Shown here piece by piece: positions 44,947 through 54,761 of a DNA stretch of 64,000 nucleotides. Below the pieces are notes generated by a model. The model had not been told where the DNA came from. It searched no databases and saw only the letters and a list, made by a program, of their open reading frames with translations. Both the position numbers and the translations under genes were made by a program. This DNA comes from Desulfobacula toluolica Tol2 (GTDB taxonomy: Bacteria; Desulfobacterota; Desulfobacteria; Desulfobacterales; Desulfobacteraceae). The stretch spans positions 4,536,001 through 4,600,000 of the forward strand of contig NC_018645.1 of the NCBI RefSeq assembly GCF_000307105.1. The letters are read 5' to 3'. Position 1 is the stretch's first letter. Every line of letters starts with the position of its first letter.

Positions 44947-45502
44947 GCACCAAAATGAGCTTGCAGCCTTGTTTTAGCTCTTTCTTTTTTTCCTTCCAAG
45001 TACCCTATCTATTTAAGACACCCAATCTTTTTTTGTTTTATGATCAATTCGTGATTATTTTAATAATTAAGCGGTGAATTTCAGCATCGTTAATTTAATG
45101 AACCGTCAAGGATTTCAAATTATTTCATTTGAGATCCTAAGCAATCTTTAAAAAAAAAGGAGATGCAAAATGAAACAAAAAATGATCCTGTTTCTGATGG
45201 TTATGACAGTTTGAATTTTTAAAGACTTTCATATAGAAAAGCACCAAAATGAGCTTGCAGCCTTGTTTTAGCTCTTTCTTTTTTTCCTTCCAAGTACCCT
45301 ATCTATTTAAGACACCCAATCTTTTTTTGTTTTATGATCAATTCGTGATTATTTTAATAATTAAGCGGTGAATTTCAGCATCGTTAATTTAATGAACCGT
45401 CAAGGATTTCAAATTATTTCATTTGAGATCCTAAGCAATCTTTAAAAAAAAAGGAGATGCAAAATGAAACAAAAAATGATCCTGTTTCTGATGGTTATGA
45501 CA
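44915..45502 (+). repeat. exact 294-bp tandem duplication
   Basis: Bases 44915-45208 are repeated without a visible difference at 45209-45502. The unit contains the tail of repeat copy 10, the region upstream of msrAB and the first 13 codons of msrAB. The junction shows only a GTT microhomology. The first copy therefore carries a truncated gene start (see 45170). It is either a very recent duplication or an assembly artefact. Confidence 0.85.
45170..45214 (+). pseudogene. duplicated, truncated start of msrAB (14 codons)
   Basis: The upstream duplicate keeps the AAGGAGATGCAAA ribosome binding site and the ATG, then reads [14 protein letters not shown] and stops at the duplication junction. 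Ribosomes loading here would make only a hydrophobic 14-residue peptide. Confidence 0.7.
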
Positions 45503-46645
45503 GTTATTTTGATTTTCGGAGAGTATCTTTTTGCCGACAAACAGAATGCCGTAAAAAATAAAACAAAACAAGCCTCGGAGAATATTATGATATCAGATAA
45601 AGACGAAATAAAAAAAAATATAGGAAAGCTTGCAATTGCCACCTTTGCAGGAGGATGTTTCTGGTGTACAGAATCTGATTTTGAGAAAATCAAAGGAGTT
45701 AATCAAGTAATTTCCGGATATACCGGCGGGCAAGAAACAAACCCGACCTACCAGGAAGTGTCCGGAGGCAACACCGGTCATGCCGAGGCGATACAGGTGT
45801 ATTATGACCCCGATGTTGTGACCTATGATGAACTTTTGGATGTATTCTGGCGGCATATTAACCCGACAGATCCGGGCGGGCAGTTTGTGGACAGGGGGTC
45901 ACAGTACCGGTCGGAAATTTTTTACCATACCGAGGCGCAAAAAAGAAAGGCAATGGCTTCCAAGCAGGCATTGGAAAAATCAAAGATTTTTGATACGCCT
46001 GTTGTCACCCCCATTACAAAATTTGAAAAATTTTATGAGGCTGAAGCATACCACCAGGATTATTATAAGAAAAATTCATATCGGTATAAATATTACCGAT
46101 GGGGGTCCGGCAGGGATCAGTTTTTAGACAAAGTATGGAAGGATAAGAATATGGATAAAATGGACAAAAAGAAAAATCTGCCGGAGAAGAAAAAAACCGT
46201 TAACCTGTCATCCTGGTCAAAACCGGAAGATCCGGAGATCAAAAGAAAACTTACACCTCTGCAGTACAAGGTCACTCAGAATAACGGAACAGAACAGCCT
46301 TTTAACAATGAATACTGGGACAACACCAAAGATGGGATTTATGTGGATATTGTTTCAGGAGAACCTCTGTTCAGCTCCAAAGACAAATTCAAATCAGGTA
46401 CTGGGTGGCCAAGCTTTACAAAAGTTCTTGAGCCGGATCATGTTATTGAGAAAACAGATAAAAGCCTGTTCACGGTCCGGACAGAGGTGAGAAGCAGATA
46501 TGCGGATTCCCACCTGGGACATCTGTTTGATGACGGCCCCCAACCCACGGGCATGCGATATTGCATTAACTCTGCGGCATTGAGATTTATCCCCCAGAAC
46601 GAACTTGAAATTCAAGGATATGGCAAATATCTGGAAATGTTTTGA
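45464..46645 (+). CDS. msrAB: exported MsrA-MsrB methionine sulfoxide reductase fusion
   Basis: This 393-residue protein has an N-terminal signal peptide (hydrophobic residues 5-22 ending near FADKQ). It then has an MsrA domain ([34 protein letters not shown]) and an MsrB domain ([40 protein letters not shown] with the catalytic Cys). It repairs both sulfoxide epimers of methionine in periplasmic proteins. The MsrB zinc CxxC pairs appear absent. The strong AAGGAG site and the start are duplicated 294 bases upstream. Confidence 0.93.
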
Positions 46646-48278: not shown

Positions 48279-48980
48279 ATGCGTCTTGAATGTAACAGTC
48301 TGAATTTTACCTACCCCGGCAGTGAGATTGCCGTCATTAAGAACCTTTCTTTTTCCATGGAAAACCCAGGATTCAATGCTTTGTTCGGACCATCCGGGGT
48401 TGGGAAAACATCTTTGGCAAAAATAATTGCCAATATTAATGGGAGAAATATTCGATGTGGCGGTGATCTCTTGATCAACAACATGGATACTATTCTTTAT
48501 TCGTATAACCTGGAAAGGCTTCCGGGATGGTCGAGTACGGGCAATCATCTGAACAAGGTAACACCGCCTGGAAAAGAGGCATTAAAAAAACAATTAATCA
48601 ATATTTTTGAATTAAATGATGTGCTGGGCTCAAGATTTTCCCAGCTTTCCATGGGGCAGCAGAACCGTATCAATCTCATTCGATACCTGTTACAAAAATT
48701 TGATCTTCTGATTCTGGATGAAAGCCTTGCCAATGTTGATGAAAAATTGAGGGAATCAATCATCCTTGCTATCAAAGAATTATTTGCCGATAAAATGTTT
48801 TTATATATTTCCCACAACCTCATAGAGGTATCAAAATTTTGCAAACAGATTCTTGTTTTCGGAAAACAATCAGAAAACAAGGGCTGTTTTATGGTAAACG
48901 GGCAGGATTACAGAGCCGACTATCAACTGGACAAAAAAAAGCTGGATCTCACCATGCTGGAGATTATGAATGCTTTTTAG
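48279..48980 (+). CDS. divergent ABC transporter ATPase (NitT/TauT type)
   Basis: This 233-residue ATPase has Walker A FGPSGVGKTSLAK, Walker B LLILDESLANVD and the H-loop ISHN. The signature is LSMGQQNR instead of LSGGQ, and the Q-loop Gln is not evident (YSYNLERLPGW). It is placed before a matching permease (11-base overlap) and an NMT1-like binding protein, so it energises that importer. The ATG at 48279 has GGAG eight bases upstream. Confidence 0.85.
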   Translation: MRLECNSLNFTYPGSEIAVIKNLSFSMENPGFNALFGPSGVGKTSLAKIIANINGRNIRCGGDLLINNMDTILYSYNLERLPGWSSTGNHLNKVTPPGKEALKKQLINIFELNDVLGSRFSQLSMGQQNRINLIRYLLQKFDLLILDESLANVDEKLRESIILAIKELFADKMFLYISHNLIEVSKFCKQILVFGKQSENKGCFMVNGQDYRADYQLDKKKLDLTMLEIMNAF

Positions 48981-49737
48981 ACGAATTTATCAGTTTTTGA
49001 TCGTATATGCTATTGGCATTGCTTTTTTATTGATGATAAAGATGGTATTATCATTGTCCGATTATGTGATCCCGGGTGTTCCGTTAATCATTGAAACAGC
49101 AGGCCATTTAATTAAAACCTATTTTTTTGACGTTATGAACACCTTGTCAGTAACCGTACTGGGCCAGTGCATGTCGATTATCATGGCCTTTACCGTGGGG
49201 ATTGCCGGCCGGAAGTCATCCTGGATCGGTTCTTTTATTAAGGTGACGGCCTATAATATACAGGCATATCCAATTGTTGCCCTGGCCCCAATTATTTTCA
49301 TCCTTCTGGGGGATGGATTTCTTCCAAGGCTTTTGATTGCGTCCATGATCTGCTATTTTCCACTTCTTTTATCCGTGCTGGGCATCATGGCAACCCCGGT
49401 AGAAGATATTGAACATTTTTATATTGTCACAGGCCGGATGAGGTGGCAGCTTGAGGTAAAAATAAGGGCATTTGAAAATTTAAGCAAGCTGACGACCGTT
49501 ATATCGGGAAGCGCAACCCTTGCCATGGCCGGAACCATTGTGGCGGAATTCATTGCTGCCAATGCCGGGATCGGGTACAGTATCAGGATTGCTCTGTATC
49601 AAAGCGATCTGGCTAAAATTCTGATCGCGTTATTTATGATCGGCATCATTATATCCATATACCAGGGAATGTTGGAAACAATGGGAGAACAAATTAAAAC
49701 CAAATGGTCTATTTCAAAAAAAGGAGAGGTCTTATGA
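48970..49737 (+). CDS. ABC transporter permease (SsuC/TauC type)
   Basis: This 255-residue protein has about six hydrophobic helices and the EAA-type loop around FYIVTGRMRWQLEVKIRAFEN. It is the inner-membrane channel of the importer. It overlaps the ATPase gene at its start and the binding-protein gene (ATGA) at its end, giving a tightly coupled three-gene unit. Confidence 0.9.
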   Translation: MLFRRIYQFLIVYAIGIAFLLMIKMVLSLSDYVIPGVPLIIETAGHLIKTYFFDVMNTLSVTVLGQCMSIIMAFTVGIAGRKSSWIGSFIKVTAYNIQAYPIVALAPIIFILLGDGFLPRLLIASMICYFPLLLSVLGIMATPVEDIEHFYIVTGRMRWQLEVKIRAFENLSKLTTVISGSATLAMAGTIVAEFIAANAGIGYSIRIALYQSDLAKILIALFMIGIIISIYQGMLETMGEQIKTKWSISKKGEVL

Positions 49738-50741
49738 AAAAAAGCCATTTCATAGTACTGGTGCTTTTATTGTTTCTGATCTCTGCAACATCCGTACATG
49801 CAAAGCAAATCAAATTGAATTACAGGCTTAAATGGCTGTTTAACGCCAGTGTTGCAGGGGACATTTATGCTGATGCCAAAGGCTATTTTGCTGATGCCGG
49901 TTTAACCGTCAAGGTCAAGGAGGGAAGTCCTGAAAAAAACGCCATTAACGAATTGGAACTGGGGCATGCCGATTTTGGCGTGGCGTCCGCAGACCAAGTG
50001 ATTCGTGCCCTTGATAAGGGGGCCAAAATCGTCGTTATCGCACAAATTTTCCAGGTCAATCCCATGCAATGGATTTACCGGGCGGACCAACCTGAAATCA
50101 AAAAACTTGAGGATCTTAAAGGACGCAATATCGGCATCACGTTTGGCGGAAATGATGAAACCATTATGAATACCGTTTTTGCCAGGGCGGGCATTACAAA
50201 AAAAGATGTCACCATTACAGGGGTCAGGTTTGATTTTACCCCCTTTTTCAGACAAAAAGTGGATGTCTGGCCGGTATACAGAAATTCCCAGGGCGTTATA
50301 CTCAAAGCTAAACTGGACAAAGAGGGAGAAAAAATTTATTTTTTCAATCCAGCTGATTTTGGTGTAAATTTTGTGGCCAATTCCGTGATTACCTCGGAAA
50401 CGATGCTGAAAAACAGGCCCGAAATGGTTGAAAAATTTTTAGAAGCTTTGCTCAAAGGCTGGGAAGCCGCCATGAATCCGGCAAACGAAGCCTCAGTTCT
50501 CCAAGAAATCAAAAAACTGGATCAGGGAACCAATGATGAAATCAGGCAACAGCAGCTTGTCGCCACAAGAACCCTGATCAAACCATCCGTATCAATCAAA
50601 ATAGGCACTATTGATATCAATGCCTGGAAGCAGACCGAGCATATCATGTTCAAAGAAAAACAGATAAAAAACAAGGTCAATATTGCAACTCGTCTGATCC
50701 AAAACATTAGCAAACCAGTTGAATTTAAAAAATTTAATTAG
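49734..50741 (+). CDS. ABC transporter substrate-binding protein (NMT1/THI5-like)
   Basis: From the ATG at 49734 (AAGGAGAGGTCTT) this 335-residue protein has a signal peptide ending near SVHAKQ and the NMT1 fold. Segments include LNYRLKWLFNASVAGDIYAD, YFADAGLTVKVKEGSP, ADFGVASADQVIRA and GRNIGITFGGNDE. The family binds pyrimidine precursors of thiamine, riboflavin, alkanesulfonates or nitrate. The WLFNAS motif resembles thiamine-precursor and riboflavin importers, but the ligand is not certain. It lies 82 bases upstream of the hydrogenase genes. Confidence 0.87.
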   Translation: MKKSHFIVLVLLLFLISATSVHAKQIKLNYRLKWLFNASVAGDIYADAKGYFADAGLTVKVKEGSPEKNAINELELGHADFGVASADQVIRALDKGAKIVVIAQIFQVNPMQWIYRADQPEIKKLEDLKGRNIGITFGGNDETIMNTVFARAGITKKDVTITGVRFDFTPFFRQKVDVWPVYRNSQGVILKAKLDKEGEKIYFFNPADFGVNFVANSVITSETMLKNRPEMVEKFLEALLKGWEAAMNPANEASVLQEIKKLDQGTNDEIRQQQLVATRTLIKPSVSIKIGTIDINAWKQTEHIMFKEKQIKNKVNIATRLIQNISKPVEFKKFN

Positions 50742-50823: not shown

Positions 50824-52335
50824 ATGAAAGTAGATATTGGTCCGGTAACCCGGTTGGAAGGTCATCTGAGTATCCATACAACGGTTGAAAATAATGTTAT
50901 TACAGAGGCAAAAAGCATGGGAGAAATGTTCAGAGGCTTTGAAGCATTTCTCCGGGGCCGGGATCCCCTGGATGCACAGCAAATAACTCAAAGAATCTGT
51001 GGTGTCTGCTGCTATGCACATGCTGTAGCATCCTCTTATGCTCAGGAATCTGCATATAATCTAAGCGTACCGCCAAACGGCCGTATTTTGCACAACCTGA
51101 TACAAGGAGCAAACCATCTGTATGATTATTTGTTGCACTTTTATCAATTGTCTGCATTGGATTTTGTAGATGTTACGGCAATCCTTGAATATAAAGGGTC
51201 GGATTCCGACCTTACAGTTCTCAGGGATTGGGTAAAAACAGAACTTAATTCAAAAACAGCTTTTCCAGCAGCACCCTTTTTGCCAAGACTGTCAGGACGC
51301 TATCTTTCCGATGCACAAGTAAACATAGGGGCTTTGAAACATTATATTGAATCGCTTGAAATCCAAAAAAAGGCCAACAGGGCCTCAGCTATTTTCGGCG
51401 GCAAATTTCCGCATGCCACTGCCATATTTCCAGGCGGATGCACCCAGTCTCCAACTATTGACAATATTGCATCATACAGGTCATTAATTTTTGAAGTTCG
51501 AAATTTTATCCATCAAAAATATATCCCAGACATACTGGCTGTTGCCAAAGAATTTCCCGATTACTGGAATATCGGAAAAAGCCGGGGCGGTTTTCTGTCA
51601 TATGGACTGCTGCCCCTTGGGCCGCAATTGGACAGCAAACGATTGTTTGCGCCAGGCGTCTTGTTTCAAGACAATTTTGCCCGTGTTGACTTTGATGCCA
51701 TTCAGGAAGATGTAAAATATTCCAAATACTCATCCCCTTCAGGCTTAAAGGTAAGAAATGGGGAATTAACCCCATCCTCCCATAAAACAGGGGCATATTC
51801 ATGGGTTAAAGCGCCAAGATATCAGGAGAAAATGGTGGAGGTCGGCCCGGCAGCCAGGATATTGGTGGATTATCATCAAAACAACAACCCGAAAATCAAA
51901 CAATTGGTGGATAAATTTGCCGGTTTGGCGGGCATCAAGGCCGAAAACCTGAACTCAGTACTGGGAAGACATCTGTGCCGTGCTATATCTGCCGCAGTTA
52001 TTGCTGATTTTCTGCTGGAGGAGACGGAGCGTATTGATCTTAAAGGACAACACATGGCCCAATATAATCTTCCAAAATCAGGTGAAGGATTTGGTGCCAC
52101 AGAAGCTTCACGGGGTGCCCTTCTCCATTATATTAAAGTTAAAGATTACAAAATAAAAAAATATGAGTGCGTTGTTCCAACCACATGGAACTGTTCGCCC
52201 AAAGATGATAATGATCAGCCCGGAGCGCTTGAATCGGCTTTGATCGGAACCCGGGTTGAGAATCCTGATGAACAGATTGAGGCCAACAGAATTGTACATT
52301 CTTTTGATCCGTGCTTAGCCTGTGCCGTACATTAA
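50824..52335 (+). CDS. [NiFe] hydrogenase large subunit without C-terminal peptide
   Basis: This 503-residue protein carries the NiFe(CN)2CO active site. Ligands are Cys59 and Cys62 in the L1 motif RICGVCCYAH and Cys497 and Cys500 in the L2 motif DPCLACAVH. The chain stops exactly at the last His (503). The usual C-terminal extension, cleaved by a HyaD/HynC-type protease after nickel insertion, is missing, as in regulatory hydrogenases. The gene order, large before small, is unusual for membrane-side hydrogenases. A small subunit with a Tat leader follows after 60 bases, and a heme-c chemoreceptor follows that. No maturation genes are in the window. Confidence 0.93.
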   Translation: MKVDIGPVTRLEGHLSIHTTVENNVITEAKSMGEMFRGFEAFLRGRDPLDAQQITQRICGVCCYAHAVASSYAQESAYNLSVPPNGRILHNLIQGANHLYDYLLHFYQLSALDFVDVTAILEYKGSDSDLTVLRDWVKTELNSKTAFPAAPFLPRLSGRYLSDAQVNIGALKHYIESLEIQKKANRASAIFGGKFPHATAIFPGGCTQSPTIDNIASYRSLIFEVRNFIHQKYIPDILAVAKEFPDYWNIGKSRGGFLSYGLLPLGPQLDSKRLFAPGVLFQDNFARVDFDAIQEDVKYSKYSSPSGLKVRNGELTPSSHKTGAYSWVKAPRYQEKMVEVGPAARILVDYHQNNNPKIKQLVDKFAGLAGIKAENLNSVLGRHLCRAISAAVIADFLLEETERIDLKGQHMAQYNLPKSGEGFGATEASRGALLHYIKVKDYKIKKYECVVPTTWNCSPKDDNDQPGALESALIGTRVENPDEQIEANRIVHSFDPCLACAVH

Positions 52336-52395
52336 TAACCAGACCGATAATTACAACAGGCTGAAACTTTTTAATTTTTCGTTGAGGACAAATTT

Positions 52396-53328
52396 ATGAT
52401 AGATAGACGAGAATTTCTGAAAATGGCTGCATGTTTAAGTGCCTCCTTTGGTATTTCCAACTTCCCCGGAATTGTTAATGCAGCCTTGAAAAAGATCACT
52501 CCTGAAAATACTCCCCAACTTATTTATTTACAGGGCCAGTCATGCACCGGCTGTTCTATTTCATTGCTGCAGGCAGAATCTCCTGATGCAGTTTCCATGG
52601 TGACCCAATATTCAAAACTTTCGTTTCATGCTGACCTGTCTGCCGCATCAGGCAAACAGGCTTTGAAACTCATTGAAGAATACATTTCAGGCGATGCCGG
52701 AGAATATTTTCTTGCAGTGGAAGGAGCCATTCCCTGGGCAATGCCCGAAGCTTGTGTGATAGGAGACAAGCCGTTTGCCGATTATTTGACGGCGGCTGCA
52801 AAAACCATGAACGGTGCCGTAGCAGTCGGCACATGCGCTGTACATGGCGGTATTCCTGCTGCCGAAGGAAATTTAACCGATGCCGTCAGTCTCAAAGAAT
52901 TTTATAAACGAAAAGGCATTAACCCTTTGCTGATTGATATTCCGGGATGCCCGGTTCATCCTGACTGGGTATGGAAAACTATCATTCACCTTGCACAGGT
53001 AGGATTGCCGGAGTTAATCAATGGCCGGCCCAAATTATTTTTTCAACGCAAAGTCCATGAGCTTTGTCCAAGATATCATGATTTTCAACAGGAGATCTTT
53101 GCCGAAAAACTGGGTGATAAAGGATGTCTATTCAAGTTGGGCTGCCTTGGTCCCGACACCTATGCCGATTGTCCGACACGTTGGTGGAACGGTGGACAAA
53201 CCTGGTGCATTGATGCAAATGCACCCTGTATAGGCTGTGCCTCATCTCAGTTTGCATCAAAAAAGAATTTTCCATTTTACAGATCATTTGAACAGGCAAT
53301 GATAAAAAATTCGGAGGATAATAAATGA
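52396..53328 (+). CDS. [NiFe] hydrogenase small subunit with Tat leader
   Basis: This 310-residue subunit conducts electrons through three Fe-S clusters. The leader [14 protein letters not shown] is a twin-arginine signal, so the folded heterodimer should be exported with the large subunit. The proximal cluster uses Cys50, Cys53, Cys147 and Cys185. The distal cluster has His221, Cys224, Cys244 and Cys250. The medial site has four cysteines (259, 271, 278, 281) because Cys271 replaces the Pro of standard periplasmic enzymes, which predicts [4Fe-4S] in place of [3Fe-4S]. No C-terminal membrane anchor is present. The stop overlaps the chemoreceptor ATG. Confidence 0.93.
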
Positions 53329-54761
53329 ATCAGAAATTCTTTTCTCATCTCTCGGTAACTCACAGAGTTCTCTTTGTCGTACTTTTTGTTCTTTTTATTT
53401 CCCTTATTATAACTGTTTTATTGCTGAATGGATTTGTTGAAAGGCAAATGCGTCTCACATATACTGATTCGGTTCAAACACTTTTTAATGCATTTGAAGA
53501 TGGCGTAAAGGGCTCTCTTGAAAGAGGGCAGATGAAAAATTTTCAAAAACTGTTGCATCATCAAAAAGAGATAAAAGGGGTGCTTGGAGTTAACCTGTAT
53601 GATAAACAAGGCGACATAAACTTATCTTCAAATAATATTGCCAATGAAACACGGTTGTCTTCTGAACTGCTTGATCAGATTGATCGCTCCAAAACAGAAC
53701 AGCTTATCTTTCAAACCGACTCAAGGCTTACTGTATATGCCCCGCAATGGGTGGTTCCCGATTGTATCCGGTGTCATCCTACCTGGAAAAACGGAGATAT
53801 CGGAGGGGTATTGTCTCTTACATATAATCTGGATTCACTCAACAATGTTATTGACCGTCTGAAATATTTTACTGCCGGTGGATCTTTGATTCTCCTGTTT
53901 ATTGTCAGTATTATCATATTTTTAGTGATGCGCAAAATGGTCAGCAATCCCATTAATAGCATCATTAACAACTTAAGCACCAGTGCAAAAAGTGTTGGTG
54001 AAGCCTCCCATATGACAGCTTCAAGCAGTGAATCTTTATCTAAAAATGCATCTCTCCAGGCATCCTCACTGGAACAAACCTCGGCATCTTTGAAAAAACT
54101 GGCTGAAATGACGCATATGAATACTGAAAATGCAGCCTTGGCTGATAATATAATGAGTGAAACAAGCCAGGTCATGATTGACTCAAATCAAACCATGGAC
54201 GGCCTGAACAATGCCATGAAAAAAATTGAAGAAGCCAACAAAGAAACTGCATCGACTCTCAAGCTCATAGATGAAATAGCTTTTCAAACAAATCTGCTTG
54301 CGCTCAATGCCGCTGTTGAAGCAGCCAGGGCAGGTGAGGCCGGTGCGGGTTTTGCCGTGGTGGCGGATGAAGTCAGAAATCTGGCGTTACGGTCTTCAAA
54401 GGCAGCCAATACGATTAATGTGCTGATCAAAGGGTCTAATTCCAGAGTATCCAAAGGGGTTGAGTTTGCACAAAAAGCAGGGGAATCATTTGGCACTTCG
54501 GGAAAAAAGACCCGAGAAGCTGTTGCTTTGATAAATAAAATTGCTTGTGCATCAAAAGATCAATCCGCTGATATTTCTCAATTGTCCATTGCCGTCACTG
54601 AACTTGGAAAGGTGACTCAAAATAATTTGGGGGATTCAAACAAGGCATCTTCGGTTTCAAGTGAAATGGAATTACAGTTTAAAAAGTTAAGTCAAGATGT
54701 TGACAGCCTGATCAAATTAATAAGAGGAGAATCTGTTTTCAGGGAAGCAAATTTGAAATAA
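53325..54761 (+). CDS. methyl-accepting chemotaxis protein with periplasmic heme-c site
   Basis: This 478-residue receptor has a first transmembrane helix (about 14-35) and a periplasmic domain (36-180) with one heme-attachment motif CIRCH (Cys147, Cys150, His151). It has a second helix (182-202) and a cytoplasmic signalling domain with the conserved hairpin tip ([20 protein letters not shown] and [16 protein letters not shown]). The HAMP region between the membrane and the signalling helices looks shortened. Heme-c PAS-like receptors are known (DcrA of Desulfovibrio, GSU0582 and GSU0935 of Geobacter). The ATGA overlap with the hydrogenase small subunit implies coupled synthesis and a joint function. 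Confidence 0.92.

Follow-up and report, generated by a model that had tools for sequence, protein, structure and literature searches.

What does a [NiFe] hydrogenase do when its genes run directly into that of a chemoreceptor? The question is raised by three same-strand genes of Desulfobacula toluolica Tol2, which encode the large subunit (LSU) and the small subunit (SSU) of a hydrogenase and a methyl-accepting chemotaxis protein (MCP, here the receptor). They lie in a 64,000-nucleotide stretch (contig NC_018645.1, positions 4,536,001 to 4,600,000; hereafter the window) of a genome that consists of a single contig of 5,197,905 bases (Table 1). A sequence-only reading, made without database searches, had proposed that the exported hydrogenase reduces a heme c in the periplasmic domain of the receptor in the presence of H2. 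We followed this up and put the probability that the trio is a dedicated H2-sensing chemosensory system, acting through this receptor, at roughly three in four. The support is comparative, and comes from the linkage of the genes, the co-variation of the receptor domain with the enzyme, chemotaxis genes that adjoin the trio in some relatives and the resemblance of the modelled fold to the heme-c chemoreceptors GSU0935 and GSU0582. That electrons pass from the hydrogenase to the receptor heme we consider probable, if a little less so.

The elements listed in that reading are all in place. Open reading frames and Pfam and NCBIfam matches bear out the three genes, the SSU stop overlaps the receptor start in ATGA, and the SSU, which begins MIDRREFLK, carries a twin-arginine (Tat) leader (TIGR01409, 21.6 bits against a cut-off of 16.7). 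The single CxxCH of the receptor's periplasmic part lies between its two hydrophobic segments (residues 5-40 and 179-210). No gene for a cytochrome c3, an electron partner or a membrane anchor adjoins the hydrogenase, and LSU and SSU have no hydrophobic or transmembrane segment at the threshold used. We also scanned the window for stop-to-stop frames with at least two CxxCH, or with one CxxCH and more than 150 residues; since the receptor is the only frame flagged, no c3-type gene is seen beside the hydrogenase.

Whether the three genes belong together can be judged from their relatives. An LSU search of 291 genomes of the order gave matches in 175, from which we surveyed 33 stretches (the window itself, the top matches and a small number of remoter ones, with most matches below about 44% identity outside the sample), and to these we added the 80 best loci among the matches listed in a genome-collection scan, for a total of 113. 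The LSU end could be resolved in 110 of these, with 42 ending in His, five in Gln at the same place and 63 carrying an extension. Within the 90 loci that have at least 2,700 bases downstream of the LSU, a receptor domain follows on the same strand in 35 of the 36 with extension-less, His-ending LSUs, compared to none of the 54 others, so homologues of the hydrogenase pair do not consistently miss the receptor, as they might have done. The sole exception, L053 (G166), was considered as a rule-breaker, and its genome pairs SSU and receptor on a separate contig (C871), with the LSU elsewhere. Besides L053, four His-ending loci have no receptor downstream, two on short contigs that have it upstream instead (L016, L041) and two at contig ends (L055, L070).

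Gene order divides the same loci, as the SSU lies downstream of the LSU in 39 of 42 His-ending loci and upstream in 61 of 63 extension-bearing ones. If the receptor is taken to begin at the start codon closest to the SSU stop, the two genes are spaced by -4 to +10 bases in 21 of 37 loci; in five loci a gene intervenes. Four relatives of the Tol2 locus (L032, L033, L034 and L064) have an additional MCP between SSU and heme receptor that Tol2 does not have; it is 435-465 residues long in L032-L034, and its Pfam scan was limited to the L032 copy. At a verrucomicrobial locus (L073), two heme-motif receptors stand in tandem, and the opposite strand carries a further LSU-SSU pair.

At least five phyla are represented among the records that conserve the adjacency of the trio. 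Their titles name Desulfobacterales, Desulfuromonadales, Deferrisomatales, Phycisphaerae, Pirellulales, Opitutaceae, Verrucomicrobia, Spirochaetia and Riflebacteria (nearly all of them metagenome assemblies), and the linkage persists down to about 46-47% identity to the LSU of the window. A tree was built of 108 LSUs, with extension-bearing relatives included and group 2 sequences not placed. One branch sets its 40 receptor-type rows apart, and no row with an extension falls among these. Judged by these sequences, LSU identity alone is no marker of the receptor-linked clade; L056 (G021), 48% identical to the window, has an extension, an upstream SSU and no receptor.

The same association is seen from the receptor's side. 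Searching the same 291 genomes with a profile of its periplasmic domain yielded 39 matches in 34 genomes, and 30 of the 32 strong ones (at least 149 bits) adjoin hydrogenase genes; among the seven weaker matches, the stretches examined around six contain no hydrogenase of this kind and the seventh is a fragment. Across 38 loci, LSU distances correlate with those of the periplasmic domain at r=0.861 (partial 0.83 given the cytoplasmic half), and with those of the receptor's cytoplasmic half at r=0.424 (partial 0.02). Both correlations, the 0.424 value included, exceed all 2,000 shuffles. The poorer alignment of the cytoplasmic half, and saturation if present, would also depress its correlation. 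Linkage survey, reverse search and distance correlation together led us to reject the receptor as a chance neighbour. Compared with each of the four relatives that have the additional MCP, Tol2 shows 83-86% identity in the LSU, about 50% in the sensor domain and only 23-24% in the cytoplasmic half, and because of this difference the signalling half appears to have been swapped, with the periplasmic half kept alongside the enzyme.

By sequence, the Tol2 enzyme lies nearest the [NiFeSe]/group 1a types, with Cys instead of Sec in the last CxxC of the LSU. The hydrogenase pair matches TIGR00391 (hydA) above its cut-off, whereas the NF033181 score of the LSU stays below the cut-off of 600. Both CxxC motifs of the NiFe site (C59, C62, C497 and C500) are invariant across 22 LSUs. 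A point overlooked in the sequence-only reading is that the LSU terminates precisely at DPCLACAVH, with no cleavable extension. Respiratory [NiFe] hydrogenases usually bear a C-terminal stretch that an endopeptidase cuts off, and this stretch is naturally missing from some hydrogenases, including the H2-sensing ones of groups 2b and 2d (PMC7294309; here and below, statements from cited papers refer to the accessible parts of those sources). We rejected a truncated or misassembled gene, as 37 of the 38 surveyed LSUs with a receptor downstream stop at the same His, the end of L069 being unresolved, and none has an extension. A second extension-less clade, Gln-ending, with the SSU upstream and no receptor, comprises L104, L109, L116, L121 and L128 (four records of Bipolaricaulota/Acetothermia and one of Neomarinimicrobiota).

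The maturation genes of Tol2 agree with this end. Its genome has one LSU-family match (PF00374) in total, no match to [FeFe] hydrogenase (PF02906) and no HycI protease found, and it has HypC, HypF, HypD and a HypE-like gene (judged from AIRS domains) in a row, as well as HypA; HypB was not among the Hyp proteins sought. On these grounds, and by these searches, the maturation set is there for this hydrogenase alone. In some relatives hyp genes adjoin the trio itself, with HypF and HypD at L035 and homologues at L037, L039 and L042. We sought HycI in all 29 genomes of the order that have a clade member, counting LSU matches at 1e-30. It is missing from 11, each with exactly one LSU match (G039 and G210, for example), and 17 of the 18 that have it show at least two (G161 and G084, for example); these genomes are related, matches may be fragments and hydrogenases distant from this LSU go uncounted. 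Six of the HycI-less genomes are less than 90% complete, namely G097 (74), G078 (65), G262 (86), G210 (86), G182 (87) and G261 (89).

These properties bear on the most conventional explanation, an ordinary periplasmic uptake hydrogenase that reduces a soluble cytochrome c3 and whose genes are only co-transcribed with that of the receptor. LSU and SSU are indeed closest to respiratory [NiFeSe]/group 1a enzymes, and this is the sole Tol2 hydrogenase found by the two families searched. Growth on H2/CO2 belongs to the shared repertoire described for six Desulfobacteraceae, with the exception of two hydrogenase-less species, neither of which is Tol2 (PMC11887813), and Table 1 of PMC5109826 enters Tol2 as non-autotrophic. 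Yet linkage across phyla, the missing extension and a co-variation that is stronger with the periplasmic than with the cytoplasmic receptor half speak against it, and the 17 of 29 clade-member genomes with at least two LSU matches have further hydrogenases unless fragments were counted twice. We consider simple uptake improbable; the enzyme may nevertheless have a double role in sensing and in H2 oxidation for growth.

The proposed electron transfer to the receptor would need a path and an acceptor. In the SSU, 12 Cys/His positions are kept in 40 or 41 of 41 sequences, and from knowledge of solved hydrogenases we take these to be the ligands of three [4Fe-4S] clusters. On the receptor side, the predicted Cache/PAS-like periplasmic fold and the CxxCH on an MCP are the features of heme-c chemoreceptors. 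The model of the sensor domain (pLDDT 87.8) matches GSU0935 (3b42, 3b42_B) at E 5.7e-6 and GSU0582 (3b47) at E 3.4e-4 in Foldseek, among 30 matches below 0.001 that likewise include sporulation kinase D and Ragulator/roadblock proteins. Sequence profiles were less informative: that of the sensor-domain alignment gave chance-like matches only against PDB sequences (best E 0.017), PF21563 is matched by 10 of 22 domains at E<=1 with the window domain at 12.4 bits against a gathering score of 27, and PF11845 is matched by the window domain only under its cut-off. Pfam and NCBIfam scans gave no HAMP match in the receptor.

The heme motif has a companion. All 39 CxxCH domains that cover the stretch have a Met at the position of Met70 (38 by pattern and L074 by eye, the L016 domain beginning too late), and the two of the 42 domains that have no CxxCH have no Met either. 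Because the Met is kept with the CxxCH and is missing where the CxxCH is missing, the alignment points to Met70 as a candidate distal heme ligand. Potentials of -156 and -251 mV are in the range reachable by H2, and these are the midpoint potentials of the hemes of GSU0582 and GSU0935, respectively. In the source of these values, one heme of GSU0935 is bound by Met60 and His144, and the Met ligates the reduced iron (PMC8396549). The spacing of Met and CxxCH is alike in the two receptors, at 70/147 in Tol2 and 60/140 in GSU0935 (PMC8396549).

A heme of this kind could instead sense NO, O2 or general redox state, with the hydrogenase merely keeping it ferrous, and GSU0935 and GSU0582 are indeed redox-responsive and bind NO as well as CO (PMC8396549). 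No hydrogenase is mentioned for these receptors in the accessible parts of that source and of a second text, however, and in the family studied here the distances between sensor domains follow the hydrogenase, which makes this explanation very unlikely.

The link to chemotaxis is more visible in relatives than in Tol2. Although we expected outputs other than MCP for the longer receptors, all 20 relatives' receptors scanned with Pfam have MCPsignal. At G218 an additional MCP accompanies the trio, which is followed by CheA, CheW, CheB and CheR, each Pfam-tested; G237 and G269 repeat this gene series, their CheA being Pfam-tested and the other genes assigned from gene order and from resemblance at the protein starts. 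CheB and CheR come after two MCPs in G013, CheW and CheR are found at L051 and a CheA-type gene at L067 and L064, and L075 has CheA on the opposite strand with CheX nearby. Matches in the Tol2 genome number nine for the CheW domain and three for the flagellin domain.

Several observations weigh against H2 sensing through the heme and the chemotaxis pathway, and they do so at different points. The receptor-type clade has a single origin in the LSU tree, on a branch with a support of only 63, and since the loci share this origin, neither the linkage counts nor the Fisher value can be read as those of independent samples; as far as sequences can tell, persistence at low identity and across lineages is what carries weight, rather than raw counts. 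Two strong receptor-domain matches, L147 (G024:C31) and L152 (G258:C326), lie away from hydrogenase genes, and G138 combines a single LSU match with HycI. In the structure search, the top PDB matches are the heme-free extracellular domain of WalK, with the heme-c receptor domains reaching only 0.41-0.43 in query TM-score, low values that may arise because the GSU0935 and GSU0582 sensor domains crystallise as swapped dimers (PMC3460858, PMC8396549). No che gene is found among the scanned genes that flank the Tol2 trio, where the next gene encodes a MATE transporter, and the tested CheA proteins (G218, G237 and G269) carry a receiver domain at their end. Finally, two Planctomycetota receptors, L075 (8497-10194) and L076 (8503-10134), both counted among the 35 linked loci, keep the domain and the linkage without CxxCH and without Met. 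As for L152, by eye it sits in what looks like a che operon.

The two heme-less receptors bear on the electron step. With CxxCH and Met both missing, heme reduction cannot be their route, so the linkage does not strictly depend on heme, and signalling by contact stays a serious rival, in which the hydrogenase conveys its H2-bound or redox state by conformation and the heme is a modulator or second input. There is a parallel in HoxBC, which presumably interacts with its kinase HoxJ (PMC6978683). Set against this are the CxxCH of 40 of 42 domains, with the Met that accompanies it, and an SSU in which every ligand position of a complete electron relay is preserved; on balance we rate signalling by contact as unlikely. 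The receiver domains at the C-termini of the three CheA proteins raise a different doubt, as with them the output might not be flagellar and H2 sensing could serve an alternative cellular function of the Che pathway. The gene listing shows no separate CheY-like ORF between CheA and CheR, and Desulfotignum phosphitoxidans, which shares its genus with the title of L064, is reported without some flagellar regulators and as apparently motile by gas vesicles (PMC4046663). The flagellin-domain and CheW-domain matches of the Tol2 genome speak against a non-motility output, which we regard as doubtful. Both of these explanations are variants of H2 sensing by the trio, and their odds overlap with those of the reading that we prefer.

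In that reading, heme-wired H2 taxis, the LSU-SSU dimer would be matured by Hyp proteins with the usual protease step skipped, exported by Tat and assembled in the periplasm with the sensor domain of the adjacent receptor, on which it would act. H2, the presumed stimulus, would be oxidised at the NiFe site, and its electrons would travel via the three [4Fe-4S] clusters to the receptor heme c. Reduction would let Met70 bind the iron alongside the His of the motif, the sensor domain would shift, and this shift would alter CheA activity, and hence motility, in a direction that is likewise presumed. We conjecture that the heme is reoxidised by the periplasmic cytochrome pool, in which case the signal would report the balance of H2 against acceptor.

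Among known systems, the closest in role are the group 2b regulatory hydrogenases (HoxBC or HupUV with HoxJ), which share the H2-sensing role proposed here and an LSU without extension (PMC7294309). They work inside the cell, on a histidine kinase (PMC6978683), whereas the Tol2 type has a Tat leader and is linked to a membrane chemoreceptor, with an MCP in the window and in the 20 relatives scanned. By sequence the enzyme is placed in group 1, without the cleavable extension and the HycI-type protease of that group. Its nearest neighbour there is HysAB (periplasmic, [NiFeSe]/[NiFe] group 1a), from which it differs by Cys for Sec, an LSU gene before the SSU gene, no extension and the adjoining receptor. 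GSU0935, GSU0582 and DcrA are alike in having a periplasmic Cache/PAS-like domain and one c-type heme motif on an MCP, and the first two differ in that no hydrogenase input is mentioned for them in the accessible text.

The sequence-only reading knew of no hydrogenase encoded as the input module of a chemoreceptor, and this claim of novelty holds in part. The general idea is not new, because HydDB names a class C2 of [FeFe] hydrogenases 'Chemotactic (putative)', associated with MCPs and possibly sensing H2 (PMC5037454); this is an unrelated enzyme class, with no match in the Tol2 genome as said above. The version with an exported [NiFe] enzyme and a heme receptor was not found described. The literature searched, with most subscription papers outside its reach, yielded neither a [NiFe]-hydrogenase chemoreceptor nor a bacterial chemoreceptor for H2. 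An MCP cluster (no. 29, 87 genes) is tabulated among the neighbours of [NiFe] hydrogenases, with no discussion found in the accessible part of the paper (PMC12727194). Among archaea, Methanococcus maripaludis reportedly shows taxis toward H2. A 2025 paper on this archaeon contains the phrase 'taxis toward hydrogen' (PMC12403587).

Around the trio, the genes immediately 5' of the hydrogenase (48279-50741) encode an ABC ATPase, a permease and an NMT1/THI5-like binding protein by Pfam, and an ORF at 45464-46645 reads, on visual inspection of its translation, as a possible MsrA-MsrB fusion that would be exported. The window is absent from all 15 of the largest neighbour-gene groups displayed for the surveyed loci.

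Table 1 Features of the hydrogenase-receptor trio, in window coordinates.
Feature	Coordinates	Strand	Size and evidence
[NiFe]-hydrogenase large subunit (LSU)	50824..52335	+	503 aa; PF00374 (NiFeSe_Hases) 511 bits; NF033181 574.6 bits
C-terminal motif DPCLACAVH, last nine LSU residues	52306..52332	+	translation and relatives' alignment
Hydrogenase small subunit (SSU), Tat leader	52396..53328	+	310 aa; Pfam Oxidored_q6 and NiFe_hyd_SSU_C
Methyl-accepting chemotaxis protein (MCP, receptor)	53325..54761	+	478 aa; MCPsignal 132 bits
Predicted periplasmic Cache/PAS-like sensor domain, residues ~41-178	53445..53858	+	AF2 model of residues 37-181 and Foldseek
Met70, candidate distal heme ligand	53532..53534	+	conservation together with CxxCH
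CIRCH c-type heme attachment motif, residues 147-151	53763..53777	+	CxxCH kept in 40/42 homologous domains
MCP signalling domain, residues 280-431	54162..54617	+	PF00015

H2 is one of the central currencies of anaerobic sediments, and the trio is a short candidate system for sensing it, made of two enzyme subunits and one receptor. We lean towards seeing in it a sensory [NiFe] family with one origin in respiratory group 1, which would work outside the cytoplasmic membrane, be wired by electrons to a chemoreceptor heme and use turnover as its taxis signal, and which would have spread to several phyla with interchangeable signalling halves. The rule that marks it in sequence, an LSU without extension and the order LSU-SSU-MCP, suggests that some supposedly respiratory hydrogenases could be reassigned as sensors. 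If the proposal is true, a chemoreceptor would be fed electrons by a partner enzyme rather than binding a ligand, and the cell could probably respond to molecular hydrogen with an exported hydrogenase as its receptor's detector.

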